From contig NC_061801.1 in NCBI RefSeq assembly GCF_021462225.1, positions 5,390,125-5,454,124 of the forward strand: DNA of 64,000 nucleotides, in the 5' to 3' direction. Below, one piece after another: positions 13,621-31,179 of the stretch. The position numbers were made by a program, and so were the translations under genes. Source of the DNA: Girardinichthys multiradiatus (taxonomy: Eukaryota; Chordata; Actinopteri; Cyprinodontiformes; Goodeidae). Under the pieces are notes generated by a model that did not search any database, was not told where the DNA came from, and saw nothing but the letters and a program-made list of their open reading frames with translations. Within the stretch, counting starts at the first letter, position 1, and the number at the start of each line of letters is the position of its first letter.

Positions 13621-14019
13621 AATACACATCTAAAGCTCGGCAGATCTCACTGCCTCAGCTAAGGTCAAAGTTCATGATTCACGTGCTTCTACAGGTCCTT
13701 CTCAAAATATTAGCATATTGTGATAAAGTTCATTATTTTCCATAATGTCATGATGAAAATTTAACATTCATATATTTTAGATTCATTGCACACTAACTGA
13801 AATTTTTCAGGTCTTTTACTGTCTTAATACGGATGATTTTGGCATACAGCTCATGAAAACCCAAAATTCCTATCTCACAAAATTAGCATATCATTAAAAG
13901 GGTCTTTAAACGAGCTATGAACCTAATCATCTGAATCAACGAGTTAACTCTAAACACCTGCAAAAGATTCTTGAGGCCTTTAAAACTCCCAGCCTGGTTC
14001 ATCACTCAAAACCCCAATC

Positions 14020-14598
14020 ATGGGTAAGACTGCCGACCTGACTGCTGTCCAGAAGGATACTATTGACACCCTCAAGTAAGAGGGTAAGACACAGAAAGAA
14101 ATTTCTGAACGAATAGGATGTTCCCAGAGTGCTGTATCAAGGCACCTCAGTGGGAAGTCTGTGGGAAGGAAAAAGTGTGGCAGAAAACGCTGCACAACGA
14201 GAAGAGGTGACCGGACCCTGAGGAAGATTGTGGAGAAGGGCCGATTCAAGACCTTGGGGGACCTGCGGAAGCAGTGGACTGAGTCTGGAGTAGAAACATC
14301 CAGAGCCACCGTGCACAGGCGTGTGCAGGAAATGGGCTACAGGTGCCGCATTCCCCAGGTCAAGCCACTTTTGAATCAGAAACAGCGGCAGAAGCGCCTG
14401 ACCTGGGCTACAGAGAAGCAGCACTGGACTGTTGCTCAGTGGTCCAAAGTACTTTCTTCGGATGAAAGCAAATTCTGCATGTCATTCGGAAATCAAGGTG
14501 CCAGAGTCTGGAGGAAGACTGAGGAGAAGGAAATGCCAAAATGCCAGAAGTCCAGTGTCAAGTACCCACAGTCAGTGATGGTTTGGGGTGCCGTGTCA
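14020..14598 (+). pseudogene. Tc1 transposase, 5' part, disrupted
   Basis: The N-terminal helix-turn-helix part (RIGCSQSAVSRHLSGKS) and the first catalytic Asp region (LSSDESKFCMSFG) are readable. An in-frame TAA interrupts codon 20 (after DTLK), and the Polinton cuts the gene after VMVWGAVS. The remaining C-terminal part lies at 30463-30894 and includes QHDLAPAHSAK (second Asp) and SPDLNPIEN (Glu), with a TGA after DIVK. Cannot make transposase. Confidence 0.9.
14593..14598. repeat. Polinton target-site duplication, left copy
   Basis: GTGTCA directly before the left terminus, repeated at 30463-30468. The undisturbed Tc1 copy at 58470-60079 has a single GTGTCA at the matching site (GGTGCCGTGTCAGCTGCTGG on its coding strand), confirming the empty-site sequence. 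Confidence 0.9.
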
Positions 14599-14810
14599 GA
14601 GAGAATTTAAGTGCACCCTTTCATCAAACATTTTGACAGGTGGGCGGGACTTCCGGTGAGGGCGGGACTTCCGGTGGGGGCCATATGGGCGCCATGTGGT
14701 TGCCATGTGGGCAGGGGTGTGTGTCCAAGGGGCGTAACAGTGGATGTTGATTGGTTGTCGTCATTAGGGGCGATACCTTAAATGAGTCAATTAAAACACA
14801 GGGGTGTGTT
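14599..14810 (+). repeat. Polinton left terminal inverted repeat
   Basis: About 212 bp, matching the reverse complement of 30229-30462 with a few substitutions and one gap of about 22 bases (present only on the right). It contains two direct 18-bp-spaced copies of GGGCGGGACTTCCGGTG at 14642-14658 and 14660-14676, combining Sp1-like GGGCGG and ETS-like CCGGAAGT (reverse strand) motifs. Confidence 0.92.
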
Positions 14811-14880
14811 TAAGGGTGTTACGGGGAAGGCCTTAAATGAGCCAATTAAAACACACAGGGGTGTGTTTAAGGGTGTTATT
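14775..14880 (+). repeat. Sub-terminal tandem repeat, period about 56 bp
   Basis: CCTTAAATGAG(T/C)CAATTAAAACACA...GGGGTGTGTTTAAGGGTGTTA occurs twice, from 14775 and from 14831. The first copy overlaps the inner end of the left terminal repeat; the second has no partner at the right end. The element is therefore asymmetric just inside its termini. Confidence 0.8.
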
Positions 14881-15560
14881 AATAATCTGTATGTTTTTTC
14901 AGGCGTTAATACATCTAAAAAACAAAACAAACAAAAAAAAAGACATGCATCCTTTTATATTTTTAAAGGTATAATCAACTTAATGTTGACCTATCACATG
15001 AAATCCTAATAAAGGAACTGTGTAACCTGACAGAATTGTAAGTTAATTTTGCTTTACAGCAGGACCTATTTGTTGAATATATGAGCCAGTCTAAATCCGT
15101 TCAAAATAGAAAAGACCTAAAAAAAGTAAATAAATAAAAAAAATTGTGCTTCACTACATCGATGGAACGAGAAAAACCTTCAGCTTCTGCGTCAACATAC
15201 TGGAAAAGCAGCTGAAATAGGTAAGACGAATATCAGATTAACAGAAAAAAAAAAAGAACATCAGTATACTGTTTCCAAGTTACAAATTGACTAGCAATGA
15301 TGTGTTTGTTTTTTAATCATGAGAGACTCCATTTTAGGAAAAAAAAAAAAAAGGAATGATAATTTTAGTTACCTGTAGCTTTTCTAAAAAACATTTTACT
15401 TTTTCATCTTAGAGTTACAGGGGGTTACAACTGTTAGGGGCGATGTTAGGAAGGGGCAGTTACGTCTGTTTCTTAGATAACATATCACCTTTGAACTCAA
15501 GAAGGGTTTTGGTCTTAAAAACATAGTCTTTGCAGTTGAGATAACACTGTCATGTTCTGG
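14811..15560. other. Polinton left noncoding segment
   Basis: Between the left terminal repeat and the first gene. It is A-rich, with no convincing coding frame; short open frames here lack support. It probably holds the leftward promoter region. Confidence 0.5.
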
Positions 15561-15568
15561 TATAAATA
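15561..15568 (+). promoter_or_regulatory. Candidate TATA box for the seven-exon gene
   Basis: TATAAATA lies 123 bases before the ATG at 15691. It is the best promoter-like match upstream of the left-hand genes. This is inference from position only. Confidence 0.5.
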
Positions 15569-15690
15569 CTGTGTGTAAATGTTGGGGCTCTGTTTCATTG
15601 GTTAACCTCAGTGTCAGGGTCTTCAAATGCTGAATGTCTTTGAACCATAACACTTGTTACATTGAAAAATACCAGTACTGACAAGAAAAA

Positions 15691-17131
15691 ATGTCGGTAA
15701 ATATTTCAGGAAACCCGGAAATTGTGGCTTCTTCTTCTGATAATTCACAAAAGCACAATGACATCTTAAAACGTAAGTAAGTAAGTAAGTATCATTAAAT
15801 GCATGTGAATGTTCTCAAATTTTGTTTATATATATTGTTTATATATATATATATATATATAAACAATATATATATATATATTTGTTTCTTTGTCATAGAA
15901 CCCACCGCTGATGACCTTGATGATTTCATCTTGACACAATCAGATTATGGTAAGTAAATGTTAAATGCAATAAAATATATATATATATATATTATAGTTA
16001 ACCCTTGACAATGTTTCAATTTATAGATTTGATGAGAGAGGTAAACCCGAATGATCAAGTTGGAGGGTTCAGCGGCTGGAATCCACACTCCAAATTAAGA
16101 AGGCGAATTATTTCCAAACAAGAAAAACTCGCAACAACTGAACTTTCTTTTAACACAGAAATTACGACAGATTCTTTGAATACCCCCCCGTCAATTATCA
16201 TCATTTCCCCTGAAGACACACCGGATAAGTTACCGGCACCACCAGAAAGTAAGTAAGTCCTAAGAACTATCTATTTTTTCTTTGAGAGTGAATGTATTTT
16301 ATTTATGTGTTATTAGAGACTTTTGTTTTAAACCTCAGATAAAACTGTTTACAGATTCGACTGAGAGCTCTGTGGAAGACATAGTTGTCGAGCAGGAGCA
16401 AGGTAAGGAAATAAAAATTAAATAAAAACAATATATATATATATGTATTTTAAGCATAGTTCAATAAAAATGTCATATAAACCTGTTTACAGATACATCC
16501 AAAGATGCCACATTGAATCCGCCCACCAGAAGGTCGCTTTTCAAAGATCAAGACAGCTTTCAGCAGAACGGCACAGTTTCAGTCCAACAAGAAGTGAAAT
16601 CTGGAGGTTTTACCGCAAAGAATCGGAGTAAGATTTTTAAAAAAACTTGTGTATTTTAAAAACTATTTTCGTTTTATTTATGAACGCTGTGCTGCGCAGC
16701 GTAAGATAACTTTTATTGTCTTCTGTTTTTACAGAATATTTAACCCCGGCCAAAAGACAGCGACTCTTTGCGCTACAAACCAGAGCAACGCTAGTGAGTG
16801 GTTTAATGAACGGTACGTTTTAATTCATACATACATACTGAATTAATTTTAATTCCCCTTTTTTTTTTTTTTTTTTTTTTCAGCTTTAATGTGATTATTT
16901 CAATATATATATATATATATTTATTATCTATTTATTTATTTTTTGTTCATTCTCCTTACAGAGGTAACGTTGATGGTAGGACAGATTGGTCACAGAAACG
17001 GACAGCGCAGGAAGACAGTCTCTACAGCCTCACGGAATCTTCGTAATAAGGCCTCATCGTTAACGCTTCTGGCAGCATGTCAGATTCTGTTAAAGAAGCA
17101 TTTTGGTGACATCAAGGTGATTTTAAACTGA
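15691..17131 (+). CDS. Spliced seven-exon Polinton gene, unknown function (261 aa)
   Basis: I do not recognise this protein. Seven exons can be read: 15691-15772, 15899-15949, 16027-16248, 16355-16402, 16493-16627, 16735-16812 and 16962-17131 (stop TGA). The six introns are 77-149 bp, all GT-AG, with good donors (GTAAGT, GTAAGG, GTAAGA, GTACGT) and TTTACAG/CTTACAG-like acceptors, and every one is phase 1. The joined frame is 786 bases with no stop. The protein is hydrophilic: an acidic, Ser/Thr-rich N-terminal half (for example ADDLDDFILTQSDYD and SPEDTPDKLPAPPE), then basic segments (TPAKRQR, GHRNGQRRK), and a more hydrophobic C-terminus (LTLLAACQILLKKHFGD). It has no signal peptide or obvious enzyme motif. 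Its position at the promoter-bearing end and its acidic-then-basic make-up would suit an early regulatory protein, but that is inference. The last donor-like GTGATT at 17117 could allow an alternative final splice. Confidence 0.8.
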
Positions 17132-17460
17132 ACTGATCACTGTGTTTTTGTTTTTTGTTTTTTGTTTTTTCTGTAGGTTAGTTTTATTTTTATTTTTGTT
17201 TCTTATGTTCATAGAAAATGGATAACCGTTAATGCAGAAGAAAATAGCACACCGTCTCCACACAGCAAAATTATCATAATCCCTCTACGACACACTCCGC
17301 AGATCATCACGGGGGTCATTTCAATACAGGAGTAGCGGTTAGTTCTGATCAAGTAATCAGACTTGCCCTGGATGAAATAAGAAATTTAGTTAATGAACTT
17401 AACGAAATCCCCGTTAATGCATCTCCTGCTAACAGTGAAAATTTAATAAATGAACATCAG

Positions 17461-17730
17461 CACGGTGACGTTTTAAACGTAATCAATCAGGCTCTTTCCG
17501 ATTTGAACAGCGAACCGTCTCCACACAGCAGCATTGAGGAAAATGATTCACCTGACACTCATCAGAATCTTTCTACGTCACACGCCGCAGATCGGCACGG
17601 TGACGTTTTAAACGTAATCAATCAGGCTCTTTCCGATTTGAACAGCGAACCGTCTCCACACAGCAGCATTGAGGAAAATGATCCACCTGACACTCATCAG
17701 AATCCTTCTACGTCACACTCCGCAGATCAT
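17461..17730 (+). repeat. Two tandem 135-bp (45-codon) repeats in the PolB N-terminal region
   Basis: Near-identical units at 17461-17595 and 17596-17730, each starting CACGGTGACGTTTTAAAC, keep the reading frame and encode a Ser/His/Asp-rich stretch. A further degraded, frame-shifted and internally deleted copy of the end of the unit lies at about 17235-17365, so the region has grown by at least two duplications. Confidence 0.85.
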
Positions 17731-20700
17731 CACGGGGGTAATTTCAATACGGGAGTAGCGGTTAGTTCTGATCAAATAGAGCGAGATCCTCCAGCTGTGG
17801 TTGAACGTGAACATTTTAATAACCATGAAATAAGGAGACCTTTTACCATACCGCCGCCCTGTCCAAGTAACGTTCCAGATTTAGCAGCATTCTATACAGA
17901 CATCATGCGTATTATAATTGAATTAGCCGACGCTGCGAGATCGTTAACCAGACGTAACGACGTTGTGCAGCTGGAATTAGTGGGTGAAAATCTCAATCGT
18001 CACATCACATTTACTGTTACAGATGATGGAAATATGATCCTGCCTGCTTTCGAAAACTTCCTCGACGATTTAGTACAATCGAATGCAAATATACCTGTAG
18101 ATAATAACATGGAATTTGTTCTTCAGGTTGTTAATGACCCAGCAGGAGGTTCTAAGCGTAAAGCTGCAGGAACGTTAGACTGTGAACTGTTTAATAAGAA
18201 AATGCGTCATTTGTATATTATAAACAATACCGGTAATCAGTTATGTTTTGCAATCAGCCTCGCACACGTCTCTGATCCTGAGCTCACGGATCACCGTGCT
18301 GTAGAACTGGGGAGGAGATGGCAGCATCAGGCAGGCCTTGACGAGCAAACAGCAGTTACTTTTAGTGATATTGGTAAATTTGAAACCATTCTGAAGAGAA
18401 AAATTGTAGTGTTTCACAGAACCACGGGCTCTACTGCTCTGTGTAAATTTGAGACCAGTTTCCCCGATCGTTCAAACCCTCTGTTTTTGCTGTTATTTCA
18501 AGGTCATTACTATGGGATAAAAAATCTCAAAGGTTTTATGGGGTGCAGATATATTTGTAATTACTGTTACGCCAGCTATCAGAATGCCAATACACACCAT
18601 TGTGAAGGTTATTGTCCAGTGTGTCGAACATATAAATGTATGCAAGAGATTAGCAATCCTGTAAGCTGTGCAGGCTGTCAAAGAATCTGTCGTAATTCTT
18701 CATGTTTCAGCAGACACAGGGAACCGCGCATCAGAAATAGTGCTGAAAGGCCTATGAGTGACTGTGAGTTGGTAAAACTGTGTAAAGTATGCAAACGGAT
18801 ATACGTTATTCCAATCAGTAAACCGAATAAACCACACGTGTGTAATGTAAAATGCAGTATTTGCGGTGAAAATGTACCCCCCAGCCTAGACATTACATGC
18901 GATGATCATAAGTGTTACATTCTGCCTTGCAGTGCAATTAATCAGCTTGATGATAAACTGATTTTTTATGATTTCGAATGCCTCGTCAATGAGAGCGGCG
19001 TGCATACCCCCTTTCTGGTCTGTGCTAAAACGTTGAAAGGTGATGAATGGTACGCTTATGGACTGAATTGCACCCAAAAATTTCTCCTGCATTTCAGGAG
19101 GCCAATGTACAAAGGTTACACCTTAATAGCGCACAATGCGCGGGGGTACGATGGTTACCTGATTCTCACAGCAATGCTGTAGTTAGGCATTAAACCACAT
19201 ATCGTCATGGTAGGGAGTAAAGTTCTCTGTTTAACCGACCCTGATTACAGGTTAAAATACATTGATAGCCTGTCCTTCATGTGCATGAAGCTTAGTGCCA
19301 TGCCGAAAGCGTTAGGCTTTACCGATCAAAGCAAGGGTTTTTTTCCCCACCTATTTTCCTCTGAACAACATCTCCAGTATGTAGGGGCTTTTCCTCCTCC
19401 ATCCTGCTACGCTGTAGAACGCATGAGTCTTCAAGAACAACAGGTGTTTAGCAGCTGGTACAGAGAAGCGAGCAAAGAGGTCTTTGACTTTAAGAAAGAA
19501 GCAATTCGTTATTGTAAAAATGACGTTGAAATTCTTTTTCAAGGATGCTTAAAATTCAGAGACGAGTTCTTTAAGGAGACAAGTGTGGATCCGTTTAAAA
19601 GTATCACAATAGCATCAGCCTGCATGAAGGTTTTTGTAACCAATTTCCTTCCTCCTCAAACCTTAGCCATTCCATCACCTCTGGACTACAGACGTAGCAG
19701 TAAAACGTTCTCCAGCGCGTCCATTCAATGGCTCGGCTGGATTGCAGACAGCAGAGCCATATTTATCGAGCATGCATTAAATAGGGGTGAAAAGAAAATC
19801 GGGCCATATTCAGTGGATGGGTATGCAGAGATTAACGGTGTCAAAGTTGCGTTTGAATTTTATGGCTGTTTTTTCCACGGCTGTAAAAAGTGTTACATGC
19901 CTCATGACAAGTGTCCGTTGAGAGGGGTCGCATTTGAACAGTTTTACGCAGCCACTGTTGAGAGAAGTAAGGTGTTACAAACTGTGTACGGCCTTCGTCT
20001 CGAAGTCATATGGGAGCATGAGTGGATTGAAATGAAAAAATCAGACCCAGGGGTGATCAGCTTTCTTGAGAAAGTTAATGCACCCGAACCGCTATCCCCC
20101 CGGGATGCGCTGTATGGTGGACGCACCTGTCCTATGAAGTTGAGGTACACAGCGGAACCGGATGAAACTGTACACTATGTGGATTACACATCTCTGTACC
20201 CTTATGTAAACGCCAACTGCGTTTTTCCCCTCGGACACCCCACCATCATTTACAAAGATTTTGATGACCCCAGCAGCTACTTCGGTATAATCAAAGCTGT
20301 GGTCTACCCACCACGTAACCTGTTGTTCCCTGTTTTACCTTACAGAACATCCCAAGGTAAACTTGTGTTCACTCTCTGCCGCTCATGCGCTGAATTAAAT
20401 AACCAGTCAGGTCCCTGCATGCATAATGATCAAGAAAGAGCTCTGACGGGAGTTTGGGTGACTGTAGAATTCTGTAAAGCTTTGGAGTGTAGTTATCGTC
20501 TTGCTAAAATCACAGAGGTGTGGCATTTTGAAAAGAGAAGTGATACAATCTTTAAAGGTTACATTCATTGCTTTTTAAAGGGTAAGCAGGAGGCTTCAGG
20601 CTATCCGTCTGAAGCAGTGGATCAGGAGAGTAAGTCAAAGTATATAAGCGACTACAAACTGCATCAGGGCATCCAATTAGACCCTGAGAAAATCGAGATG

Positions 20701-21438
20701 AATCCTGCCAAAAGGCAGGTTGCAAAATTGTGTTTAAACAGTTTTTGGGGGAAATTTGCGCAAAGAAGTGATCTGTCTCAGACCACAGTCATCACTAATC
20801 CTGAAGACTTTTTCAGCTTCATGTTCTCGAGTAAATACAGGGTTAACTATTTTCATTTTTTCAACCCTGAAATGTGTGTAGTGCAGTGGAACTACAGCAA
20901 ACGTGTCATATATCCACCAAGTAAGACAAATAATGTGTTTATAGCAGCATTCACCACCGCTTATGCACGTTTAAAACTTCTCAGCAGCATGGAGAAGTTA
21001 CAGGACAGATTGATTTATATTGACACGGACAGTTTGATTTATGTGACAAAAAGTGGTGAAACTCCTCTGGAATTGGGGAATTATCTGGGTGATCTTACTG
21101 ACGAGTTAGATGGTGACAGCATTTCGGAGTTTGCATCGACAGGACCCAAGAGTTATGCATACCAAACTAAAAACCGTAAAAAAGTAGTGATACGTGCTAA
21201 AGGCATCACTCAGACGCATGAATGCAGCGAGAGGGTCAATTTTGACAGCATCAAAGGGCTGGTCGAGGGCTACTTATAGGGGTCAAGTGAGGGTGTCATT
21301 GAAATCCCCCAGCACACGATCAGGAGGGATAAAAAGAGATTCCGTTTGACAAACGCGACATTTCTTAAAAAGTTTCGACTGGTGTATGATAAGAGACGTC
21401 TTTTTTCTGACGGGACAACTCTGCCTTTCGGTTATTAG
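17503..21438 (+). pseudogene. Protein-primed type B DNA polymerase (Polinton PolB), two in-frame TAG stops
   Basis: This is the replicative polymerase of the element, using a protein primer. Order: low-complexity tandem repeat region (17461-17730); conserved N-terminal domain (LYIINNTGNQLCFAISLAH, about 18210-18270); Cys/His cluster with many CxxC pairs (18540-18900); 3'-5' exonuclease motifs FYDFE, HNARGYDGY and YCKNDVE; palm motifs DYTSLYPY, KLCLNSFWGKF and YIDTDSLIY. All catalytic acidic residues are present. The frame is broken by TAG at 19180-19182, just after exonuclease motif II, and TAG at 21277-21279; downstream codons continue in the same frame to the TAG ending at 21438, whose final residues LPFGY match the usual Polinton PolB C-terminus. 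The start is uncertain: the frame is open back to about 17249 without a clear ATG, and a first exon or a start at ATG 17903 is possible. It could be a decayed copy or depend on stop readthrough; decay is more likely. Confidence 0.9.
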
Positions 21439-21468
21439 AGTTGAAGAAGAAATAAAATAAAAAGTCAC

Positions 21469-22140
21469 ATGGATTTACAGGAGATTGATTTTGATCCTAG
21501 ATTTAGAGCCCCTTTCTCATGTATGATAGTTGGACCCAGCGGCTGCGGGAAAACTTTCTTTGTAAAAAGTATTTTACAAAACTGTAATCATGTCATGGAT
21601 ATTGTTCCAGAAAATATTGTATGGATTTACACATCTTTTCAACCCATGTATGCTGAATTGCAGAAGATGAATAAAAATATTACCTTTGTGGAAGGATTGC
21701 CTCATTCTTTTGAAGATGAAAACCTGTTTCCTCCTGATCAGAATCATCTGATTATTCTAGACGATGTTATTGCTCAAGCCTCAGATGATGAAAACGTGAT
21801 GAAGGTCTTTACCCAGTTTCGTCACCATCGTAATATGAGTGTTATGATGTTGACTCAGAATGTATTTCATCAGGGAAAGTTCAGTCGCACTATTAGTTTG
21901 AACTGTAATTATATGGTGTTGTTTAAGAACCCGAGAGATAAGCTGCAGCTGAATATATTGGCCCGCCAAATGTTTCCATCTCAAAAGGGTCTCTTCTTGG
22001 AGAGTTTTGAAGACGCAACGAGAGAAGCTCATGGATATTTAATCATCGATTTTACGCCTACCTGCCCAGAACATTTCAGACTGAGAACGGGGATACTTCC
22101 TCAGCAGTGGCCTGCTGTGTACGTACCCAGAACAAAGTAA
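21469..22140 (+). CDS. DNA-packaging ATPase (FtsK/HerA, A32-like)
   Basis: A 223-residue P-loop ATPase, the predicted motor that pumps element DNA into the capsid. The Walker A motif GPSGCGKT lies at residues 23-30 and Walker B LIILDDV near residue 90. A sensor-like MLTQN follows, preceded by FRHHRNMS, as in Polinton and virophage packaging ATPases. Length is normal for the family (about 200-250). The ATG follows the polymerase frame by 30 bases, and an AATAAA (21451-21456) overlaps the gap. The frame is intact. Its presence beside capsid genes supports a virion-forming element. Confidence 0.93.
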   Translation: MDLQEIDFDPRFRAPFSCMIVGPSGCGKTFFVKSILQNCNHVMDIVPENIVWIYTSFQPMYAELQKMNKNITFVEGLPHSFEDENLFPPDQNHLIILDDVIAQASDDENVMKVFTQFRHHRNMSVMMLTQNVFHQGKFSRTISLNCNYMVLFKNPRDKLQLNILARQMFPSQKGLFLESFEDATREAHGYLIIDFTPTCPEHFRLRTGILPQQWPAVYVPRTK

Positions 22141-22146
22141 GTCATC

Positions 22147-22488
22147 ATGTCAGCGCGTATAAAAAGGAATTTACCATTATTCAGAGCTTTGTACCAGGCC
22201 TGTCCACAGAAACGTAAAGATATTCTCGCACACTGCTCTCCCGACTTTATTCAGGCTCTGTGCGAGATTGCACTGAATATCCTAAAAGGTAACATTAAAC
22301 TATCACCCTCTCAACACCGACAATTGAAGAAACAAAGAAATATCATCAGATTGTTGGGTGATAAAAGAACCGGGATAAAAACTAAACAGTTGGCTCTCAA
22401 AAAGCAACGAGGTGGTTTTATTCTGCCCATCTTAACGGCTCTTGCACCCTTGATCGGTGATCTAGTGGGTGGAATCATCAGGAGATAA
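22147..22488 (+). CDS. Small basic Polinton protein with hydrophobic C-terminus
   Basis: A 113-residue, Lys/Arg-rich protein that starts six bases after the ATPase stop. It has an N-terminal helical part (LFRALYQACPQKRKDILAHC), a basic middle (HRQLKKQRNIIRLLGDKR) and a glycine/hydrophobic tail (GGFILPILTALAPLIGDLVG) that could form an amphipathic or membrane-active helix. I recall similar short proteins in the capsid gene neighbourhood of metazoan Polintons, so a virion core or minor capsid role is likely but not shown. Its TAA stop overlaps the next start as TAATG. Confidence 0.75.
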   Translation: MSARIKRNLPLFRALYQACPQKRKDILAHCSPDFIQALCEIALNILKGNIKLSPSQHRQLKKQRNIIRLLGDKRTGIKTKQLALKKQRGGFILPILTALAPLIGDLVGGIIRR

Positions 22489-23318
22489 TGTCTCTCAGAA
22501 CATCGCAGAAGATGTTTCTCATTTCCCCTCATCAATTCAAGCGTCTGACCCAGTCAGACACGTCCATCAGACAGACGGCGGAGGAGAATTTGGATGCTGA
22601 AATGAGAGCGATATTAAACGAGCCGGGTTTGACTTCTTATGAAAAAATCAAGAGATACGATGCTCTTCTCCAGAGGTATCTGACTTTACTTAAGCAAGGT
22701 GTCAAAGAAGAAAAACAGCGGGTCAGTTTAACGCTGCAGCGTGACACAGAGGTTCCTGAACATGAGCGGTCCCAAGAAAAACAAGGCCCAGGGCAGGACG
22801 AGGCCCCTAAGGATCAGGTTCTTACGGAAGTACTGAAAAGCCTTCCTAAACACAATCGTAAAAATGCCGAGTACATTTTGAAGAAATTATCCGAAAGAAG
22901 TGAGAGTTGGACTTCGCGAGGTGAATTTGTATTTAACGGAAATATTATAAAGGGGTCCCACATGATTGATTTGTTGAAAAATCTCATGCTTCCGTTTAAA
23001 AAATCTGGAGCATCACAAACCCGAGGATGGTCTGATTTTCTACACTCCATGTCAGAAGTAAACATACCTATATCTTCAGTCATTAACCCTTATGCTCGTG
23101 AAGAATATAGACGTTTCAAAACAGAGGGTACATCGATTGAAAATGGGGGTACACCCCCCAGCGTTAAGCAGAGAAGAAAAAGAAGAAGAAGGCAGATAAC
23201 TCATTCTCCCTACTGGTCGAGATCTGAGCTGGAAGATCCAAAAAATGCTGATGGGAGATCAAAAAGGTCTCTTCGTAAGACGACACTACCACCCCGATGG
23301 ATTACATTTTCACCATAA
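22488..23318 (+). CDS. Conserved Polinton protein of unknown function (276 aa)
   Basis: The ATG overlaps the previous stop by one base (TAATG at 22486-22490), which suggests coupled translation from one transcript. The first part is helical and charged (EKIKRYDALLQRYLTLLKQG); the middle holds a compact segment (RGEFVFNGNIIKGSHMIDLL, then GWSDFLHSMSEVNIP); the C-terminus is basic, with RRKRRRR near residue 232. The GS-x-x-x-DLL ... GW-x-x-F pattern resembles a protein often placed beside the capsid genes of animal Polintons, whose function I do not know. A DNA- or capsid-associated role is inferred from the basic tail. Confidence 0.75.
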   Translation: MSLRTSQKMFLISPHQFKRLTQSDTSIRQTAEENLDAEMRAILNEPGLTSYEKIKRYDALLQRYLTLLKQGVKEEKQRVSLTLQRDTEVPEHERSQEKQGPGQDEAPKDQVLTEVLKSLPKHNRKNAEYILKKLSERSESWTSRGEFVFNGNIIKGSHMIDLLKNLMLPFKKSGASQTRGWSDFLHSMSEVNIPISSVINPYAREEYRRFKTEGTSIENGGTPPSVKQRRKRRRRQITHSPYWSRSELEDPKNADGRSKRSLRKTTLPPRWITFSP

Positions 23319-23361
23319 ACCGTTATAAGAAAAATGAAACATGTAGTCTATTTCTTTTATT

Positions 23362-23378
23362 CAATAAAATATTTATTG
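23362..23378. terminator. Shared bidirectional poly(A) signal
   Basis: CAATAAAATATTTATTG contains AATAAA on the plus strand (23363-23368) and AATAAA on the minus strand (complement of 23372-23377). It lies between the rightward gene ending at 23318 and the leftward gene ending at 23501, as expected for convergent transcription units. Confidence 0.7.
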
Positions 23379-23500
23379 ATTATATTTTTCAAGTCTAACT
23401 TCGTTCTCTACTTCACACACTAACATATGATATCATTACACAAATATTAAATCATAAGAAGAAAAAAAAAACAATGAAAAAAAAATAAAAAAAAGACATT

Positions 23501-24043
23501 TTAAATTCCATAACAATCCAGAAACATCTCCAAAGAGCATGTTCCGTGAGTATAAAATGTACAACTTTGATTAATGACACACTTCTGATATTTTTTCACA
23601 AAGTTAGATACCATTAAATCATTCTTAATCACATCTCCGGTGTATTTCGACAACACTTGCTGCATTGATAATCCGCACGCTCTATGACATAGATAAAAAA
23701 TGCAATGGTGACCGCACACAGTGGACAGAGTGTTTTGAAGCTGATTATTATGATACAATATTTTTGAGGATCTGTCTTCTAAAAATGTTACGATGCTTGA
23801 CGGGTAGAACTCAAAATCCGGAGAGAATCCATAAGAGTCAAAAAAGCTGGATTGACCATTCTCATCCAATGTCAGAGCTAGCCAGTGTTCCCCCGGCATG
23901 TGTGAAGGATGTGTATTCACGATAAAGTAGGCCGGCCCTGGGAATTTGTCAGCTAGCAGCGGCAGCTGGTCGCACGGCCACACACCGCAAAACAAATCTT
24001 CCAGCAGATGACGCATCAGGCTCTCAATTTCATGATTATTCAT
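23501..24043 (-). CDS. Adenain-like cysteine protease (virion maturation)
   Basis: A 180-residue protein of the adenovirus-protease (C5/Ulp1-like) type that is expected to cut capsid precursors. The catalytic histidine lies in GEHWLAL (residue about 52), followed by the acidic FFDSYG (about residues 67-72). Then come a Gln-containing stretch and the nucleophile in VCGHHCIFYLCH (Cys about 114). Length (about 180-200) and motif order match the family. The frame is intact. The start lies 12 bases after the stop of the major capsid gene, so the two are probably on one leftward transcript. Confidence 0.9.
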   Translation of the reverse strand: MNNHEIESLMRHLLEDLFCGVWPCDQLPLLADKFPGPAYFIVNTHPSHMPGEHWLALTLDENGQSSFFDSYGFSPDFEFYPSSIVTFLEDRSSKILYHNNQLQNTLSTVCGHHCIFYLCHRACGLSMQQVLSKYTGDVIKNDLMVSNFVKKYQKCVINQSCTFYTHGTCSLEMFLDCYGI

Positions 24044-24054
24044 GCCTGATTAGA

Positions 24055-25362
24055 TTAATAATAATCCACCAGCACACGCCTCTTTGAATCAATCTCTAAA
24101 ATAGAATCATAACAAGCGTAGATGATCAGCGTGGTGGTATATGGCAACGGGTTTCTGAAGCGCATTTCCAATCTTAAATTCCCACTGGAAACTGGAGATA
24201 GAGCATCTGTGTCCTCACCCGGGTTAAGATTAAATGTGAATAGAGAGTATCCTTGATTAAATTCCTGACGTGATATACTCAGTGGAAGATCTTTTAGATG
24301 TCGTCCTGTAGCCGTAAACAAGTTGCAATACTCTCTCACTGAATGACCTTGGTTAAAATTTGGCTGGAAGGCTTTAGCAGGAATTTGTCTGCCATCCTTA
24401 CACAAAGCTAAATATTCCATATCAAAATGATTAAAGTCAAACGGATTGAGATTGCGTGTTCCTGTAAAAGCGTCATGATCCAGTAACGCAATCACCACAT
24501 ACTTGGGAAAGATGCCTAAGAAAAGATTCTCTTGGTTGCATACCCTTGAATTTTCAGGGATGGAATATGTTTTTACATTCACACGTGAAAGTGGATACAG
24601 AGCATTTGCTTTCATTAAAGCTGAAGCGTGCCCCAGTCGTACAGCTGGAGAGACAGTAACTTTTTTGATAAAAAGAGATGCTCCTAATATCCTGAGTTTG
24701 TAAGTGGAGTCTCTTGCGGCCATGAGACAAAAGGCATCGTTGGCTCTTGTAAGTTTAATTTTAAGGTCAACAGAGTTTAAAAGAAGTCTCTCGCAGAAAA
24801 ATATGTCGGCATGCAGGGGGCCTAGGAGATGTACCTCCCTGGAATTTGCCGTAAAGCCTGCTCTGCTGTCAAGACCTTGGTTAGGGCCGTTAGTTGTAAC
24901 AATAGAGTTCAGAGCACCTGCAGTGTCTTTATAAAAAAGACCAGAGCTAAACTGGGTTTTTAAAGAATCCTCAGAAAAGTTTAACAATGTCTCAATCATG
25001 GCTCTATATGGATGTGTAGCGCTGGATTGTGAAATCATTCGATCTCCGAGAGTGACGTCACACTGACTGAAGATGGTGTTTAACGGGTAGTTGATGAGCC
25101 CTACAGGTGCATCATCTGGCAGGTTTGTTCCATTCTCGTTAGTAATTTTCACTCTGAGATGCAACAGCGTATCGTTGAGATCCAGATACTTTTCTCCGTC
25201 TCCCGGAATGAAAAACTCGATCGGCCCTCCATCGGTGATTGCTGATAAAGGCTGGATCTCGGTGTAAATTTTATCTTCGATCGATAGCTGCGTCATCGGG
25301 GCAGAAAATAAGTCCAACTCTGCCAGCGTGCACTCTGATGATTTGTTATGTAAAAGAGCCAT
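24055..25362 (-). CDS. Major capsid protein (double jelly roll, F54H12.2-like)
   Basis: A 435-residue protein resembling the family called F54H12.2-like in animals, which is the Polinton/adintovirus major capsid (hexon-like) protein. Diagnostic segments are SELDLF-type TLAELDLFSAPMTQLSIE near the N-terminus, GPIEFFIPGDGEKYLDL at about residues 46-62, and NTIFSQCDVTLGDRMIS at about 94-110. The C-terminal part has NLRLEMRFRNPLPYTTTLII. Length fits the animal Polinton type. The ATG overlaps the stop of the upstream core-protein gene as TAATG, again hinting at coupled translation. The frame is fully intact. Confidence 0.92.
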   Translation of the reverse strand: MALLHNKSSECTLAELDLFSAPMTQLSIEDKIYTEIQPLSAITDGGPIEFFIPGDGEKYLDLNDTLLHLRVKITNENGTNLPDDAPVGLINYPLNTIFSQCDVTLGDRMISQSSATHPYRAMIETLLNFSEDSLKTQFSSGLFYKDTAGALNSIVTTNGPNQGLDSRAGFTANSREVHLLGPLHADIFFCERLLLNSVDLKIKLTRANDAFCLMAARDSTYKLRILGASLFIKKVTVSPAVRLGHASALMKANALYPLSRVNVKTYSIPENSRVCNQENLFLGIFPKYVVIALLDHDAFTGTRNLNPFDFNHFDMEYLALCKDGRQIPAKAFQPNFNQGHSVREYCNLFTATGRHLKDLPLSISRQEFNQGYSLFTFNLNPGEDTDALSPVSSGNLRLEMRFRNPLPYTTTLIIYACYDSILEIDSKRRVLVDYY

Positions 25363-25805
25363 TATTTAAATATATCAAAACTTGCGGATGACTTCCTTCC
25401 TCTTCGTTTGTCAGCTGCGACTGATCTCCTTTTTCGCGTTTGTCGTTGTTTTTTAACCGTCCTTAAACGATCACCAGGGGGTCTTGTTCTGGGTCTTTTG
25501 GATAAAACCATAATTCCTGAACCTTCTTGACCGTCGATGTGTGCAGAACCACTCATTTTACTCACGGCTCTACCGATGACATCCGAAGCGATATTTGATG
25601 CAGCCGTTTTAAGATGGGGTTTTGCAATTGCAAATCCTTTTTTAACCAGAGGGGATACGAAGCGGAATAATTTTGAAAATAATGATCCAATTCCGCGTCC
25701 GTACATGACCGGGGCCCCATAAAACCCTGGCAGATTACCGCCTGATTGACTTACATAGTAATTTACAAAGCGATTTGGATCACGTCTCAGACTTAGATGT
25801 GCCAT
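25362..25805 (-). CDS. Basic virion core/condensing protein (adenovirus pVI/pX-like)
   Basis: Start chosen at the ATG at 25805 (MAHLSLRRDPNRF); an in-frame ATG at 25865 is possible but adds unrelated hydrophobic residues. About 147 residues. The N-terminal half has aromatic and glycine-rich sequence (GGNLPGFYGAPVMYGRGIGS) followed by an amphipathic helix region (FRFVSPLVKKGFAIAKPHLK). The C-terminal half is strongly basic (RPRTRPPGDRLRTVKKQRQT, KRRSVAADKRRGRKS). This resembles the membrane-lytic pVI plus DNA-condensing pX arrangement of adenoviruses, also proposed for adintoviruses. The role is inferred. It lies directly upstream of the major capsid gene. Confidence 0.75.
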   Translation of the reverse strand: MAHLSLRRDPNRFVNYYVSQSGGNLPGFYGAPVMYGRGIGSLFSKLFRFVSPLVKKGFAIAKPHLKTAASNIASDVIGRAVSKMSGSAHIDGQEGSGIMVLSKRPRTRPPGDRLRTVKKQRQTRKRRSVAADKRRGRKSSASFDIFK

Positions 25806-25917
25806 GTTCTCTCTTGCCTGCTTGATGCAGTGTTGAATGACCAGCGTAATATGAATGATAACCAATCAATCTTAGAGGTTATATACATATCTCTGGAATA
25901 GTTTATACAAATAAAAT

Positions 25918-26691
25918 TTATCTCAGGCTACGTTGTGATATCACCGGTCTGAAGTGTAGTCTTATGACGGTCTTTCCATAGACGAAATTTACAGGAACGT
26001 TTTGGTCCGATTTAATTTCTATATTGATATTTTCAATATGTCTTCTGGAGACTGGAAGGTAGTGGGCGGGGTTAAACGTCTGAGTAATCATATCACTGAA
26101 TGTGCCTTGTACTTTGACGGTCCGCAGTAAAGGTGCAAAAGTGTCGCCTACTATTTGTGGGCTGACCACGTCGCTGTAACAGTATAGGTGATAGAAACCA
26201 GCCTTTATATCCGCCGGAAAAGGAGCCAGTTTTGGTTCAGAAACATGAATCCATTCCCCTGGTTTCACGCCCATCATATAAGCTAGAGTGCTGAAGAAGC
26301 GTATTTCATACGGACTATTTGCTTGAAATGCAAATCTCTTTTGAACTTTGCTGAATTTAATGCGTAAACCCGATTTCAATTTTTTGAAAAACATTTCCAT
26401 CTCTGTCTCGAGTTGAACAACGCTGTTATAGTAGCCACTTCTGATCCTTTGCGTATTGATCTCCACATCACCAACCTTCCTCCATTCAAAGTAGGCATCA
26501 TAATCCGGTAAATTATGCCATGTATGAGGGTATGAAATCTCGGCTAATGCAACCATCCATTGGCCTTCTAAATCAATATGTTGAGCTAAATTTACACGGA
26601 AACTTGAACTGGTATTATTTTTAAACACTTCCATGCTAGCATTAGATGGAAGAGTAACGTAAAAGCCATCATCCTCTACCTGACGGTTCAT
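25918..26691 (-). CDS. Minor capsid (penton-like, single jelly roll) protein
   Basis: A 257-residue protein. It begins DGFYVTLPSNASMEVFKNNT, continues FRVNLAQHIDLEGQWMVALA, and ends with YGKTVIRLHFRPV, the pattern of penton-like minor capsid proteins in animal Polintons and adintoviruses. It would form the five-fold vertices of the capsid. Length is in the normal range (about 250). The frame is intact. It sits between the core-protein gene and the integrase on the leftward transcript side. Confidence 0.88.
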   Translation of the reverse strand: MNRQVEDDGFYVTLPSNASMEVFKNNTSSSFRVNLAQHIDLEGQWMVALAEISYPHTWHNLPDYDAYFEWRKVGDVEINTQRIRSGYYNSVVQLETEMEMFFKKLKSGLRIKFSKVQKRFAFQANSPYEIRFFSTLAYMMGVKPGEWIHVSEPKLAPFPADIKAGFYHLYCYSDVVSPQIVGDTFAPLLRTVKVQGTFSDMITQTFNPAHYLPVSRRHIENINIEIKSDQNVPVNFVYGKTVIRLHFRPVISQRSLR

Positions 26692-26729
26692 GATGCTGTG
26701 TCAACTGTGAGGTTTAGTGCAAACCTTTT

Positions 26730-27818
26730 TTATACGTTTCGAAGTTCATCAAACTTGATCCAACTGTTGAATTTCTCAGGCCAGTTTTTCCAGCTTACAA
26801 AAACCTGTTTGACTCCCTTGACCGTACGTCGTTTTAATATTTTTTCCACTTGATACATCTTGTCGTTAAATATTTTTACTTTTTGAAGTTCCTCAGCGTA
26901 AAAGGAACCCTCGATAGGTTCTCCATCCAAATCTTTGAGTTTGTATACAGGAGGAGAACGGGGTATCCGGTCATAGACTGTAAACACTTCATCCGTAAAA
27001 CTCTGTTCGTATTTTTTGTCAAACACTCCACGGACCTTGGATATTCTGACAAGATCCCCTTGTTTAAACGTTGTCACTGAGTCCTTGCAATATCTGTTGG
27101 ACTTGACATCATACAGATTCTGAAACACTTGAAAGGCATTTTCTGGGGTCACTTCCATAGGGCTCATTTTAATGCTGGAGTGGTAGGAATGGTTGTAGCT
27201 TCTAGCTAGGTTTTGCAGTACATCGACGTACCGCCGGGTATTGTTAGCTGTAAAATATCTCCACATCCTTGTTTTTAATGTGCGGTTAAATCTCTCGACC
27301 ACTGAAGCTTTTGCTTCACTCGCTGTGGCAAAATGTTCAATACCGTGTTTCTCCATTAAAACTTTAAATTTCTTGTTAAAAAATTCTTTACCGGCATCAG
27401 TCTGAAGTTTTTTGGGGATCTGACTTTCTGTAAAAACTGATTCAAATGCCTTTACCACCTCAGCGGCTGTTTTCCTCTTCAAAACTCGTACATACGCCCT
27501 TTTTGAAAAGATGTCAATGACTGTTAATAAATAATTATAACCATCATTTTCCATGGCCAGAGCTTGCATGTCACAGAGATCAGCCTGGAACTGCCTCAAT
27601 GGTCTGGTGACAAAAACTCTGTTTCTCGGGAACTTTATTCTTGCAGGTTTATGTAGAGTATAGGTATCTTCTCCTGATAAAAAATCTTTAACTTTTTCAA
27701 CCGCAACCTTCTTTCCCGTTTCATCTTGCATAACCCTCCTCAGCCTATCTACACCCCCAAAACTTCCCGGATTTGAAGGGCTATAATATACTTTCTTCAT
27801 CAGCCGTCTTCCTGCCAT
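26730..27818 (-). CDS. Retroviral-type integrase with C-terminal chromodomain
   Basis: A 362-residue integrase that inserts the element and makes the 6-bp target duplication. The catalytic core holds the DDE residues: first Asp in FQADLCDMQ (about residue 80), second in LQTDAGKEFF (about 142), and Glu in ASVVERFNRTLK (about 177), with spacing typical of the rve family. A C-terminal chromodomain follows (YQVEKILKRR ... QVFVSWKNWPEKFNSWIKF, about residues 320-358), as known for Polinton integrases and thought to steer integration toward chromatin marks. All catalytic residues are present and the frame is intact, so the protein could be functional. Confidence 0.95.
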   Translation of the reverse strand: MAGRRLMKKVYYSPSNPGSFGGVDRLRRVMQDETGKKVAVEKVKDFLSGEDTYTLHKPARIKFPRNRVFVTRPLRQFQADLCDMQALAMENDGYNYLLTVIDIFSKRAYVRVLKRKTAAEVVKAFESVFTESQIPKKLQTDAGKEFFNKKFKVLMEKHGIEHFATASEAKASVVERFNRTLKTRMWRYFTANNTRRYVDVLQNLARSYNHSYHSSIKMSPMEVTPENAFQVFQNLYDVKSNRYCKDSVTTFKQGDLVRISKVRGVFDKKYEQSFTDEVFTVYDRIPRSPPVYKLKDLDGEPIEGSFYAEELQKVKIFNDKMYQVEKILKRRTVKGVKQVFVSWKNWPEKFNSWIKFDELRNV

Positions 27819-27839
27819 CTCTGCCGATTACTTGTTAAA

Positions 27840-28147
27840 TAATGAGAAAAAACACACAGGAGGGTAGCTTTATCCTTATTTTTTTTTTATTTTTTATTTT
27901 ATTTATTTAATATAAACAAAAAACAACCAGAAAACAAAATCAGATAAAATGCAGATGAATTCAAACACTACTAGCTTTTTAAACAACACTTTTGGGAAAG
28001 GTTACTATGTTCCTACTTTAATTGTATTTAATAGTAAAAAAGAAAAAAGAAGAAAAATCATATAATGCAGATTAACTAAAGTACTGGAATACTAAAAAAA
28101 AAAAAAAAAAAAAAATTATACAACAACAAGTCATCAAACATGTGAGA
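27840..28147. other. A/T-rich Polinton intergenic segment
   Basis: Between integrase and the HPSQ accessory gene. It holds homopolymer runs (including a long A run near 28096-28115) and several TTTATT (minus-strand AATAAA) sites around 27880-27910 that may end accessory transcripts. I see no gene. Confidence 0.6.
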
Positions 28148-29041
28148 TCAGTTTGTCAGTCCATAGCACTCTGAAACAGAGTTAAGTTGTTTGAGATGTT
28201 TCTCATCGACCATGCGATCATAAACGTGCGCTATTGCACTGTGGATGCCTTGTACCGATTTCAGTTCATATAAAACCGTCTTGGCAATCGTCTTCACTCT
28301 GAAGTCATCCGCTTGTATGCTTCAAAGTACCAGAAGATTCTGAATAGCAGGAATGAGTTTGGGGGTTACGAGTCGTCGTACGATGCGTTGAAAGTTGACT
28401 TGGTAATAATCCTCCCCCAGTACCTCCAGGCAATGGTGTTGACGCTGGCTTGGGTGGTTCGTTATACATCCATAGCAGGTTTCTCTGACATAGTTCAAAG
28501 AGGTTATGTTGAATAAATGAAGTATCGCTGTTTTCACCGTATTGATGAGGGTGGTTGAGAACCAACCGTCAATTTCGTCCTCCTGGTTACTCTCATCCTC
28601 TGCTGAAGGCTGAGGGTCCTCCATCGGTTCCAGGGTTTGTGTAGGGGCTTCGGTAGAGGGTGAGTAGCCGGTGGCTACCTCCTCCTCCACGACCACCTTC
28701 ATGTCTTCAGGCAGGACATTCGCGTCTACAGACTCAGCCATGAATAGCGGTGATGGTGAGCAGAGGTCTGGAGAAAGCGGTAGATATTTCATGTTGTATC
28801 CTGTAGGTGATGCAGGACTGTAGTGGTTTTCTGAGAATGAGGATGTTGAGGTGGATGGTGAGAAGAGGTCAGGGGAAGGCGGATGATATGGTCCAATGTT
28901 GAAGCTTTCATCGTGCTCAGGAGAGAAGTGGATCTCTGCTCGGTGGTTGTAGAGATCCCTGTATGGTGTCGGTCCACTCATTCTCATGATACGATTCTCA
29001 GTGTCTGTGAGCTTGCAGTTATCCCCCCGTATATATATCAT
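28148..29041 (-). pseudogene. Accessory Polinton gene, unknown, with HPSQ zinc-like motif and one in-frame TGA
   Basis: Unrecognised gene. The open frame 29041-28322 has 239 codons, but the start is more likely Met at 28987 (MRMSGPTPY), because a TATATATA stretch at 29031-29038 could be its TATA box. The N-terminal half is Pro/Ser-rich and acidic (SPDLFSPSTSTSSFSENHY; EEEVATG). The C-terminal half is folded-looking and carries CYGCITNHPSQRQHHCL (C-x2-C-x4-HPSQ-x2-HHC), a likely metal-binding motif. A TGA at 28322-28324 interrupts it; the same frame then stays open for 57 more codons with similar amphipathic composition, ending in TGA at 28148-28150. A nonsense change at an Arg CGA codon is the simplest explanation. 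I recall HPSQ-type motifs in proteins of aquatic DNA viruses but cannot name a family. Confidence 0.65.
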
Positions 29042-29057
29042 AGGAAGGGGCGTGTCC

Positions 29058-30011
29058 TCAGAAGAGGGTTCGTTCTAAACGTAAAACAGGAAACGTCAGC
29101 GTTTTTTTCACTGACATGACATCGATCCAACTTCGTAACTTTTGGAAAAGGTCGGAAAGACGATGTCCAATTTCACTCATCTTCTCTGCCCAAGCTTCAA
29201 ACGGCAGAGCCAGCATTGTCTTGAATACGCCGCAGTCCTGATTGAAAGCCTCCAACACAAACAGATCTGAGGGACTCGTCCGGTTGTTCCTGCGTCTGCT
29301 TGCCCGAAAAGACCAGCGGCCATTTGCTGTGATTTTTGACCCCCACACTGCGCTAAAGAGAGGTTCTCTCTCAGCTATTTCAACATCGGATGGTATATGA
29401 AACATTCTCGCCCGTTTTACAGGTCGAGGAGACAGTTCATTTTCTTCTTCTTCTTCTTTCTCCCTCTCCTGCCTTGAGACTGTTTCAGGGCTATCATTAA
29501 GGTGCGGGATTGCAAGCTTTAACACAGCCCAGTCGCTGTGGGTGAGTGTACACAGAGCCAGTGATCCATTAAATACCTCGTCTTGATCCAATTGATACAG
29601 GCAAAGCTCTCCTATTTCATACATGAAAATATAACCCCAGCTGCCAACCAGGCCATATGGCTCCAAAGACCATTCTTCCTGCAGAGTCTTGAACGGGGGT
29701 CTTTGTACCCTGCAGATGTAGTATGTTGATTTCTTAGGAGCATTCAATTCACGGGATGAATACTGGTAGACGGTCACTGGGGTTTCGCACAGAACTGACA
29801 TACCTCTTGGCCGAACCGAGGTCTGATTTTCAACCATGGTTGTTGAAGTTGATTTTGGATCCTCATCATCGGTAGAGTATGTCACGACGGGAATTCCGAT
29901 AGGTATCTCCGTTGAGGAAGTATATGATGCAGTTGCTTGTTCATCATCATCATCTTGGCACGCGTTGCGTTTCTCCTCCGCTTGACGATAAACTCTCTTA
30001 ACTCTAGCCAT
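29058..30011 (-). CDS. Accessory Polinton protein of unknown function (317 aa)
   Basis: Unrecognised. Start chosen at ATG 30011 (MARVKRVYRQAEEKR); an upstream in-frame ATG at 30053 adds 14 residues. The N-terminus is basic then acidic (CQDDDDEQATASYTSST). A middle globular part (EEWSLEPYGLVGSWGYIFMY, LALCTLTHSDWAVLKLAIP) is followed by an acidic coiled stretch (EREKEEEEENELS), a short basic patch (RPVKRARM) that could be a nuclear signal, and an aromatic C-terminal part (ALPFEAWAEKMSEIGHRLSD). The frame is intact. It is the outermost gene at the right end, mirroring the spliced gene at the left end, a position where adintovirus-like elements often keep lineage-specific regulators. Function not inferred. 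Confidence 0.7.
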   Translation of the reverse strand: MARVKRVYRQAEEKRNACQDDDDEQATASYTSSTEIPIGIPVVTYSTDDEDPKSTSTTMVENQTSVRPRGMSVLCETPVTVYQYSSRELNAPKKSTYYICRVQRPPFKTLQEEWSLEPYGLVGSWGYIFMYEIGELCLYQLDQDEVFNGSLALCTLTHSDWAVLKLAIPHLNDSPETVSRQEREKEEEEENELSPRPVKRARMFHIPSDVEIAEREPLFSAVWGSKITANGRWSFRASRRRNNRTSPSDLFVLEAFNQDCGVFKTMLALPFEAWAEKMSEIGHRLSDLFQKLRSWIDVMSVKKTLTFPVLRLERTLF

Positions 30012-30218
30012 TGTTGAACGGGTGTTCTTTTTTTTTTCCAACGAATGCTGCATGTAAAGTGCAGAGTTTTATCTCTGTATTTAAAGTAAACACTAAGGCA
30101 CGCCCTATTGTTTTCATTGGGTTATTCAAGGTTTAACGATGCTTACAAACACACCCCCTCTATTTTTAATTGGTGCTGATGCCAAACAGTTTCCGATAAT
30201 ACCATATTTGTCTTGTTC

Positions 30219-30226
30219 TATTTATA
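30219..30226 (-). promoter_or_regulatory. Candidate TATA box for the right-end leftward genes
   Basis: The minus strand reads TATAAATA just inside the right terminal repeat, about 208 bases before the ATG at 30011. The left-end gene has the identical octamer at 15561. Inference from position. Confidence 0.45.
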
Positions 30227-30228
30227 AC

Positions 30229-30462
30229 AAACACACCCCTGTGTTTTAATTGACTCATTTAAGGTATTGCCCCTAATGACGACAACCAATCAGCATCCAC
30301 TGTTACGCCCCCCTTGGACACACCACCTGCTTGACCACGTGACCTCCTGCCCACGTGGCAACCACATGGCGCCCATATGGCCCCCACCGGAAATCCCGCC
30401 CTCACCGGAAGTCCCGCCCACCTGTCAAAATGTTTGATGAAAGGGTGCACTTAAATTCTCTC
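30229..30462 (-). repeat. Polinton right terminal inverted repeat
   Basis: About 234 bp. It carries the same paired motif at 30385-30401 and 30403-30419, with one base change in the first (GGAAAT in place of GGAAGT). It is longer than the left copy by a 22-base insertion near 30330-30350 containing CACGTG-like sequence. Confidence 0.92.
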
Positions 30463-30468
30463 GTGTCA
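30463..30468. repeat. Polinton target-site duplication, right copy
   Basis: Second GTGTCA, after which the Tc1 transposase sequence resumes (GTTGCTGGTGTTGG). Confidence 0.9.
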
Positions 30469-30894
30469 GTTGCTGGTGTTGGTCCACTGTGTTTTATCAA
30501 GGGCAGGGTCAATGCAGCTAGCTATCAGGAGATTTTGGAGCACTTCATGCTTCCATCTGCTGAAAAGCTTTATGGAGATGAAGATTTTATTTTTCAGCAC
30601 GACCTGGCACCTGCTCACAGTGCCAAAACCACTGGTAAATGGTTTACTGACCATGGTATCACTGTGCTCAATTGGCCTGCCAACTCTCCTGACCTGAACC
30701 CCATAGAGAATCTGTGGGATATTGTGAAGTGAACGTTGAGAGACTCAAGACCCAACACTCTGGATGAGCTAATGGCCGCTATCGAAGCATCCTGGGCCTC
30801 CATAAGACCTCAGCAGTGCCACAGGCTGATTGCCTCCGTGCCACGCCGCATTGAAGCAGTCATTTCTGCAAAAGGATTCCCGACCAAGTATTGA
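30463..30894 (+). pseudogene. Tc1 transposase, 3' part, disrupted
   Basis: Holds the second and third catalytic residues of the DDE triad and the usual C-terminus FPTKY-like ending (IPDQVL region reads FPTKY in relatives). It has an in-frame TGA at 30730-30732. Belongs with the segment at 14020-14598. Confidence 0.88.
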
Positions 30895-31172
30895 GTGCAT
30901 AACTGTACATGATTATTTGAAATATTGACGTTTATTGTATTGAAAACACTTTTCTTTTATTGGTCGGATGAAATATGCTAATTTTGTGAGATAGGAATTT
31001 TGGGTTTTTATGAGCTGTATGCCAAAATCATCCGTATTAAGACAATAAAAGACCTGAAATATTTCAGTTAGTGTGCAATGAATCTTAAATATATGAATGT
31101 TAAATTTTCATCATGACATTATGGAAAATAATTAACTTTATCACAATATGCTAATATTTTGAGAAGGACCTG
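30469..31172 (+). mobile_element. Tc1-like transposon, right part
   Basis: Continues the transposase from the exact break and ends AAATATTAGC-type inverted repeat, complement of the left end, then TA at 31173-31174. Confidence 0.93.
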
Positions 31173-31179
31173 TAGATCT

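Follow-up and report, generated by a model that had tools for sequence, protein, structure and literature searches.

A predicted seven-exon accessory gene in a Maverick/Polinton element of the goodeid fish Girardinichthys multiradiatus

This study examined a 64,000-nucleotide (nt) stretch of the Girardinichthys multiradiatus genome (NC_061801.1, positions 5,390,125 to 5,454,124, forward strand; hereafter the window, whose own numbering is used throughout), which contains a Maverick/Polinton element of 15,864 bp. In the left accessory region of this element, directly upstream of the family B DNA polymerase (PolB) frame and on the same strand, lies a predicted gene of seven exons and six short introns. 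Judged from the sequence, the locus is very probably a spliced gene in some form, and it is probably an accessory gene with exactly the exons and introns drawn here. If the prediction is true, the gene would show that surveys blind to introns can miss accessory genes, and would imply that the life cycle of the element includes transcription in the nucleus and splicing by the spliceosome of the host.

Predicted exon-intron structure and its probability by chance

The features of the locus are given below; P0121 to P0124 denote four homologous fish protein models that are described in the following section.

15561..15568, + strand: TATAAATA, candidate TATA box, 130 nt upstream of the start codon (consensus match only)
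15691..15772, + strand: exon 1, with the start codon and a phase 1 end; outside homologue coverage
15773..15898, + strand: intron 1, 126 nt, phase 1
15899..15949, + strand: exon 2, acidic, with 0 K/R and 5 D/E in 16 whole codons; P0122 shares 13 of these 16 residues
15950..16026, + strand: intron 2, 77 nt, phase 1; P0122 crosses the join unbroken
16027..16248, + strand: exon 3, conserved core with IIIISPE (predicted SUMO-interacting motif); four fish homologues, 62-70% identity
16249..16354, + strand: intron 3, 106 nt, phase 1
16355..16402, + strand: exon 4, acidic; aligns directly after exon 3 in P0121 (4 of 500 shuffles)
16403..16492, + strand: intron 4, 90 nt, phase 1
16493..16627, + strand: exon 5, start similar to the end of P0122 by eye, a likeness that alignment missed
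16628..16734, + strand: intron 5, 107 nt, phase 1; weakest donor
16735..16812, + strand: exon 6, basic; outside homologue coverage
16813..16961, + strand: intron 6, 149 nt, phase 1
16962..17131, + strand: exon 7, basic, ending in the stop codon TGA; predicted single helix, no homologue found by search

Joined, the exons (82, 51, 222, 48, 135, 78, and 170 nt) sum to 786 nt and encode 261 residues plus a stop (262 codons), and each of the six introns, 77-149 nt in length, is bounded by GT and AG and interrupts the frame in phase 1; these lengths, places, and phases agree with an earlier sequence-only reading of the window. The codons split by introns 1 through 6 encode Q, D, N, D, K, and E, respectively. 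The introns are much more A+T-rich than the exons, with a G+C fraction of 0.17-0.28 vs. 0.35-0.50. When splice sites were scored with approximate vertebrate frequencies, the donors of the six introns ranked 1, 2, 3, 9, 10, and 19 among the 91 GTs and the acceptors ranked 3, 4, 6, 13, 22, and 25 among the 100 AGs. Additionally, each of the six donors is followed by an in-frame stop, the first base of which lies 5-29 nt past the donor, and for introns 1-3 this stop comes from the GTAAGTAA donor itself, which is a stop in phase 1. An unspliced transcript would hit a stop soon after any donor, so that the full product would need every intron to be spliced.

The probability of such a frame arising by chance was assessed as the longest spliced frame in dinucleotide shuffles of 15691-17131, with site thresholds slightly lower than the scores of the weakest real sites, a minimum exon length of 24 nt, and intron lengths limited to 60-200 nt. 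None of 2,000 shuffles reached 786 coding nt when introns of any phase were allowed, and none of 2,000 did so with phase 1 introns only; the longest frames were 456 and 504 nt, respectively. The statement of the sequence-only reading that six junctions would hardly agree by chance is thus borne out by both sets of shuffles. A chance frame, or a decayed intronless frame broken by AT-rich insertions, could draw on the AT runs within the introns, which make some of the introns alike; against it stand the six GT-AG pairs in one phase, the shuffle results, and the coincidence of homologue starts with exon starts, leaving this explanation extremely improbable.

With respect to intron likeness, the 3' parts of introns 3 and 4 (16291-16354 and 16430-16492) align over approximately 64 nt up to the acceptor, with 0 of 300 shuffles scoring as high, and this likeness perhaps reflects a duplication. 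Of the 15 intron pairs, six (1/4, 1/6, 2/4, 2/6, 3/4, and 4/6) had scores that only 0-4 of 300 shuffles equalled, apparently mostly because of AT runs.

Relatives in goodeid fishes and alternative gene boundaries

A search with exon 3 alone as the query returned, among 7 candidates, four proteins (P0121-P0124; E 3e-21 to 6e-17), two from Goodea atripinnis and two from Xenoophorus captivus (both Goodeidae), with 62-70% identity to exon 3. All four are partial, unnamed gene models, 102-140 residues long, from contigs that measure 2.2-5.5 kb, and three of them carry a 4-residue insert within exon 3. The model P0122 reads contiguously through exon 2 (13 of 16 residues), the D of the split codon, and exon 3, which provides strong support for the exon 2/3 join. 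Its first residue corresponds to the first whole codon of exon 2, and the first residues of P0123 and P0124 correspond to the first whole codon of exon 3; none of the three is a methionine, which is expected for partial models opening at an acceptor. The start of P0121 is an ordinary methionine, one codon past the first whole codon of exon 3.

Beyond exon 3, P0121 continues with ENSTENSLEE, compared with E, the split N, and STESSVED in the window, and exon 4 aligns directly after exon 3 in P0121 (4 of 500 shuffles) as well as in P0124 (7 of 500 shuffles), such that support from relatives for the exon 3/4 join is moderate. For the exon 4/5 join the support is only suggestive: the end of P0122 (D, APKDATLK) resembles, by eye, the split D and TSKDATLN of exon 5.

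The sequence also yields a longer path of 846 nt with five introns, in which an ATG at 15799 inside intron 1 serves as the start and donor 16253 and acceptor 16317 are used. Because this path exists, openness alone fixes neither the start nor all of the boundaries. It adds 42 nt at the exon 3/4 join, and the fish homologues lack these nucleotides by eye.

Several further observations weigh, as this longer path does, against the structure as drawn. The splice scores are weak for the donor of intron 5 and for the acceptors of introns 2 and 3. The homologues P0121-P0124 leave exons 1, 6, and 7 and the joins 1/2, 5/6, and 6/7 uncovered, and three of these four protein models end near one spot in the stretch that corresponds to exon 4. 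In P0122 and P0123, exon 4 aligned best at a different place, and local alignment missed exon 5 at the end of P0122 (202 of 500 shuffles). Finally, exon 7 alone, searched against 5.8 billion proteins, had no homologue among 46 candidates.

A spliced gene with other boundaries, in which exons 2-5 are real but exons 1, 6, and 7 are not as drawn or form part of different transcripts (e.g., transcripts running into PolB), is considered a rather unlikely explanation. It is consistent with the homologues touching only exons 2-5, with the 846-nt path, and with further candidate sites in the stretch leading from exon 7 to PolB, namely a donor-like GT at 17117 and acceptors at 17177 and 17215, whereas the six-intron model has the higher splice score sum (52.5 vs. 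45.6 for the five-intron path) and a single phase, and exons 6 and 7 are open in that same phase up to the stop. The donor-like GT lies within exon 7 and both acceptors are pyrimidine-rich; together the three sites could delimit one more AT-rich intron, located ahead of PolB.

Predicted properties, role, and origin of the product

Profile searches did not identify the protein, in line with the sequence-only reading, which had not recognized it. The five exon pieces searched had no Pfam match (exons 2 and 4 are too short to search), and P0121-P0124 had none above the cut-off; a sub-threshold match of P0123 was to the COE1 helix-loop-helix model (E 0.042, 14.1 bits vs. a cut-off of 27). Exon 3, exon 7, and P0122 had no significant PDB match (best E 0.45). 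The predicted fold of P0122 is of low confidence and lacks a compact domain, with a mean predicted local distance difference test (pLDDT) score of 60 and a predicted template modelling (pTM) score of 0.17, and exon 7 was modelled on its own as one helix. Exons 2 and 4 together encode 0 K/R and 10 D/E, while exons 5-7 encode 21 K/R and 5 D/E. From these models and charges, the product looks disordered, with an acidic front and a basic back. The stretch IIIISPE in exon 3 is invariant in 5 of 5 sequences; a cyclin-type motif pattern had one match, in exon 5, and the LxCxE pattern had no match in the exons.

A flexible nuclear regulator is suggested as a possible, though doubtful, role for this product. 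The host probably transcribes and splices the gene in expressing cells to yield an accessory protein; transcription would start from the candidate TATA box at 15561, and exons 1, 6, and 7 would be used as drawn. The acidic N-terminal exons 2 and 4 may bind nuclear partners or the transcription machinery, the IIIISPE stretch may contact SUMO itself or factors that carry it, and the basic exons at the C-terminal end may keep the product nuclear or DNA-bound, each of these being a weakly supported prediction. The predicted regulator would act early, either countering silencing or switching the element on. Two points temper this role: the SUMO-motif pattern is loose, being present in 564 of 2,000 shuffles of exon 3, and the fold models were built from 4 sequences for P0122 and from 1 sequence for exon 7.

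Alternatively, the product could be a terminal protein, a priming protein, or some other cofactor that helps PolB in replication, which would fit its basic C-terminus and the position of its gene immediately ahead of PolB with shared orientation. The published core set of vertebrate elements (PMC8097293) is without such a gene, and nothing more specific speaks against this function; a cofactor in place of a regulator is considered improbable.

For the predicted regulator, the proteins ORF61 of varicella-zoster virus and K-Rta of Kaposi's sarcoma-associated herpesvirus offer a comparison; they are nuclear early proteins with SUMO-interacting motifs (PMC8430037). The likeness consists of Ser and acidic residues placed after a hydrophobic core and of a nuclear role (predicted for the present product), whereas those proteins have a RING domain and none was found in the exon pieces searched; no sequence relationship was seen.

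The early transcription units of adenoviruses are likewise spliced and regulatory, and lie at the termini of a linear DNA genome whose replication is protein-primed. They differ from the present locus in that the searches made gave no homology, and in that six introns here fall within one small gene.

The sequence-only reading had additionally proposed that exons were captured from a host, which the searches did not uphold: neither the exon pieces nor the homologues had a Pfam match above the cut-off or, among those compared, a significant PDB match. Short symmetric phase 1 exons and vertebrate-like introns would suit a host gene fragment or captured host exons, but are unspecific. Against such an origin, the only protein matches are the four goodeid models, with two in each species and all on short contigs (2.2-5.5 kb), a pattern that suits a repeat better than a single-copy host gene; in addition, the gene surrounding the element is encoded on the opposite strand and contains EGF and laminin-G exons. 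Host capture is hence regarded as very improbable.

The related suggestion that symmetric exons were gained and lost freely is only hinted at. One hint is the length of exon 4, which has 15 whole codons compared with approximately 34 residues in the matching stretch of P0122 (by eye); this stretch is longer in the relatives than in the window gene. The other hint is a likeness between exons 2 and 4, with a score reached in 14 of 2,000 shuffles. Since this was the top score among 21 pairs and lost significance on correction, an exon duplication was rejected. It is a speculative extension, of low probability, that fish Mavericks carry a modular, multi-intron regulatory gene with interchangeable phase 1 exons and two acidic duplicates, from which alternative splicing would give several nuclear regulators per locus, and that this gene belongs to a whole layer of spliced Polinton accessory genes, missed because surveys predict ORFs without allowing for introns.

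The element, its surroundings, and published Polintons

The element is delimited by its inverted arms and end sequences, and the features outside the seven-exon gene are as follows.

14598..30461, strand not assigned: Maverick/Polinton, 15,864 bp, with inverted arms and end sequences; inside a Tc1-like transposon
14599..14811, + strand: left terminal inverted repeat; partner 30229-30462, with a gap between arms; 98% and 92% complementary
17248..21279, + strand: family B DNA polymerase frame in two pieces; DNA_pol_B_2 (PF03175), E 2.5e-38, in the second piece
21445..22140, + strand: packaging ATPase (Pox_A32-like, PF04665), by Pfam
23501..24049, - strand: adenovirus-type protease (Peptidase_C5, PF00770), by Pfam
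24055..25365, - strand: putative major capsid protein, 431 homologues, best 94% identity
26730..27827, - strand: integrase with rve (PF00665) and Chromo (PF00385), by Pfam

A 6-bp target duplication (CGTGTC at 14592-14597 and 30462-30467) flanks the element, which ends in (AG)3 on the left and (CT)2 on the right. The core genes form two inward-facing modules on opposite strands, with the core open reading frames (ORFs) present as long open frames. The frame at 24055..25365 is presumably the major capsid protein, as assigned by position; among the best 120 of its 431 homologues, most of those named by organism are from fish. The putative major and putative minor capsid proteins had no Pfam match, nor did the first piece of PolB. 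An in-frame TAG at 19180-19182 splits the PolB frame, and this Maverick copy is therefore not intact.

According to PMC8097293, no introns were observed in the genes of intact vertebrate Mavericks, a result that is placed there in agreement with Kapitonov and Jurka (2006). The predicted six-intron gene runs counter to this published intronless picture, and the sequence-only reading had likewise set it against the usual description of Polinton genes as intronless or lightly spliced; the intronless genes are a reported trait of vertebrate Mavericks and not a defining one. The same paper gives a mean size of 16.9 kb, lists (AG)3//(CT)3 among the common end motifs, and notes that accessory ORFs of diverse kinds lie beside the core modules. 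The window copy shares with these elements (PMC8097293) the inward modules, the AG-repeat end, the 6-bp duplication, the size, and accessory regions at both ends, and differs from them in its predicted six-intron accessory gene, the stop in PolB, and (CT)2 in place of (CT)3.

Among the matches listed in a search of the literature on Polintons, Mavericks, and adintoviruses, which covered titles and the starts of abstracts and included few subscription papers, no spliced vertebrate Maverick gene appeared. A large survey of viruses integrated in protist genomes states that endogenous viruses contain no introns, and for this reason used a gene finder that was built for prokaryotes and viruses and is blind to introns (PMC10120064). 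Group I introns, which are a different kind of intron, are described in Polinton-like viruses of a few protist groups (PMC12220804), and passages of a further paper that deal with splicing and introns have subjects other than adintovirus genes (PMC11071296).

Within the PolB frame, 17248-17904 is open for 219 codons ahead of its first ATG, which lies at 17905, and this stretch holds a 135-nt tandem repeat near 17461-17730. The right accessory region (28322-30068, - strand) contains two long ORFs of 250 and 336 codons from stop to stop, neither of which had a Pfam match above the cut-off. The Maverick is flanked by the 204-nt inverted ends of a Tc1-like transposon (13688-31176), a label given from ORF appearance and inverted ends. 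Further Tc1-like ORF pieces, named by their look, are located at 33570-34604 and 58747-59526. The host gene around the element, on the other strand, was assigned its EGF and laminin-G exons by Pfam and presumably corresponds to crumbs.

A pattern-based search of IMG/VR, by which distant relatives can be missed, gave no confirmed relatives of PolB or of the putative major capsid protein. Among prokaryote genome contigs, two Polinton-like contigs were found, with capsid identities of 42% and 49%. They are filed under bacterial metagenome-assembled genomes (a mussel symbiont and Breoghania) and, since they encode relatives of a Polinton capsid protein, are probably animal contamination.
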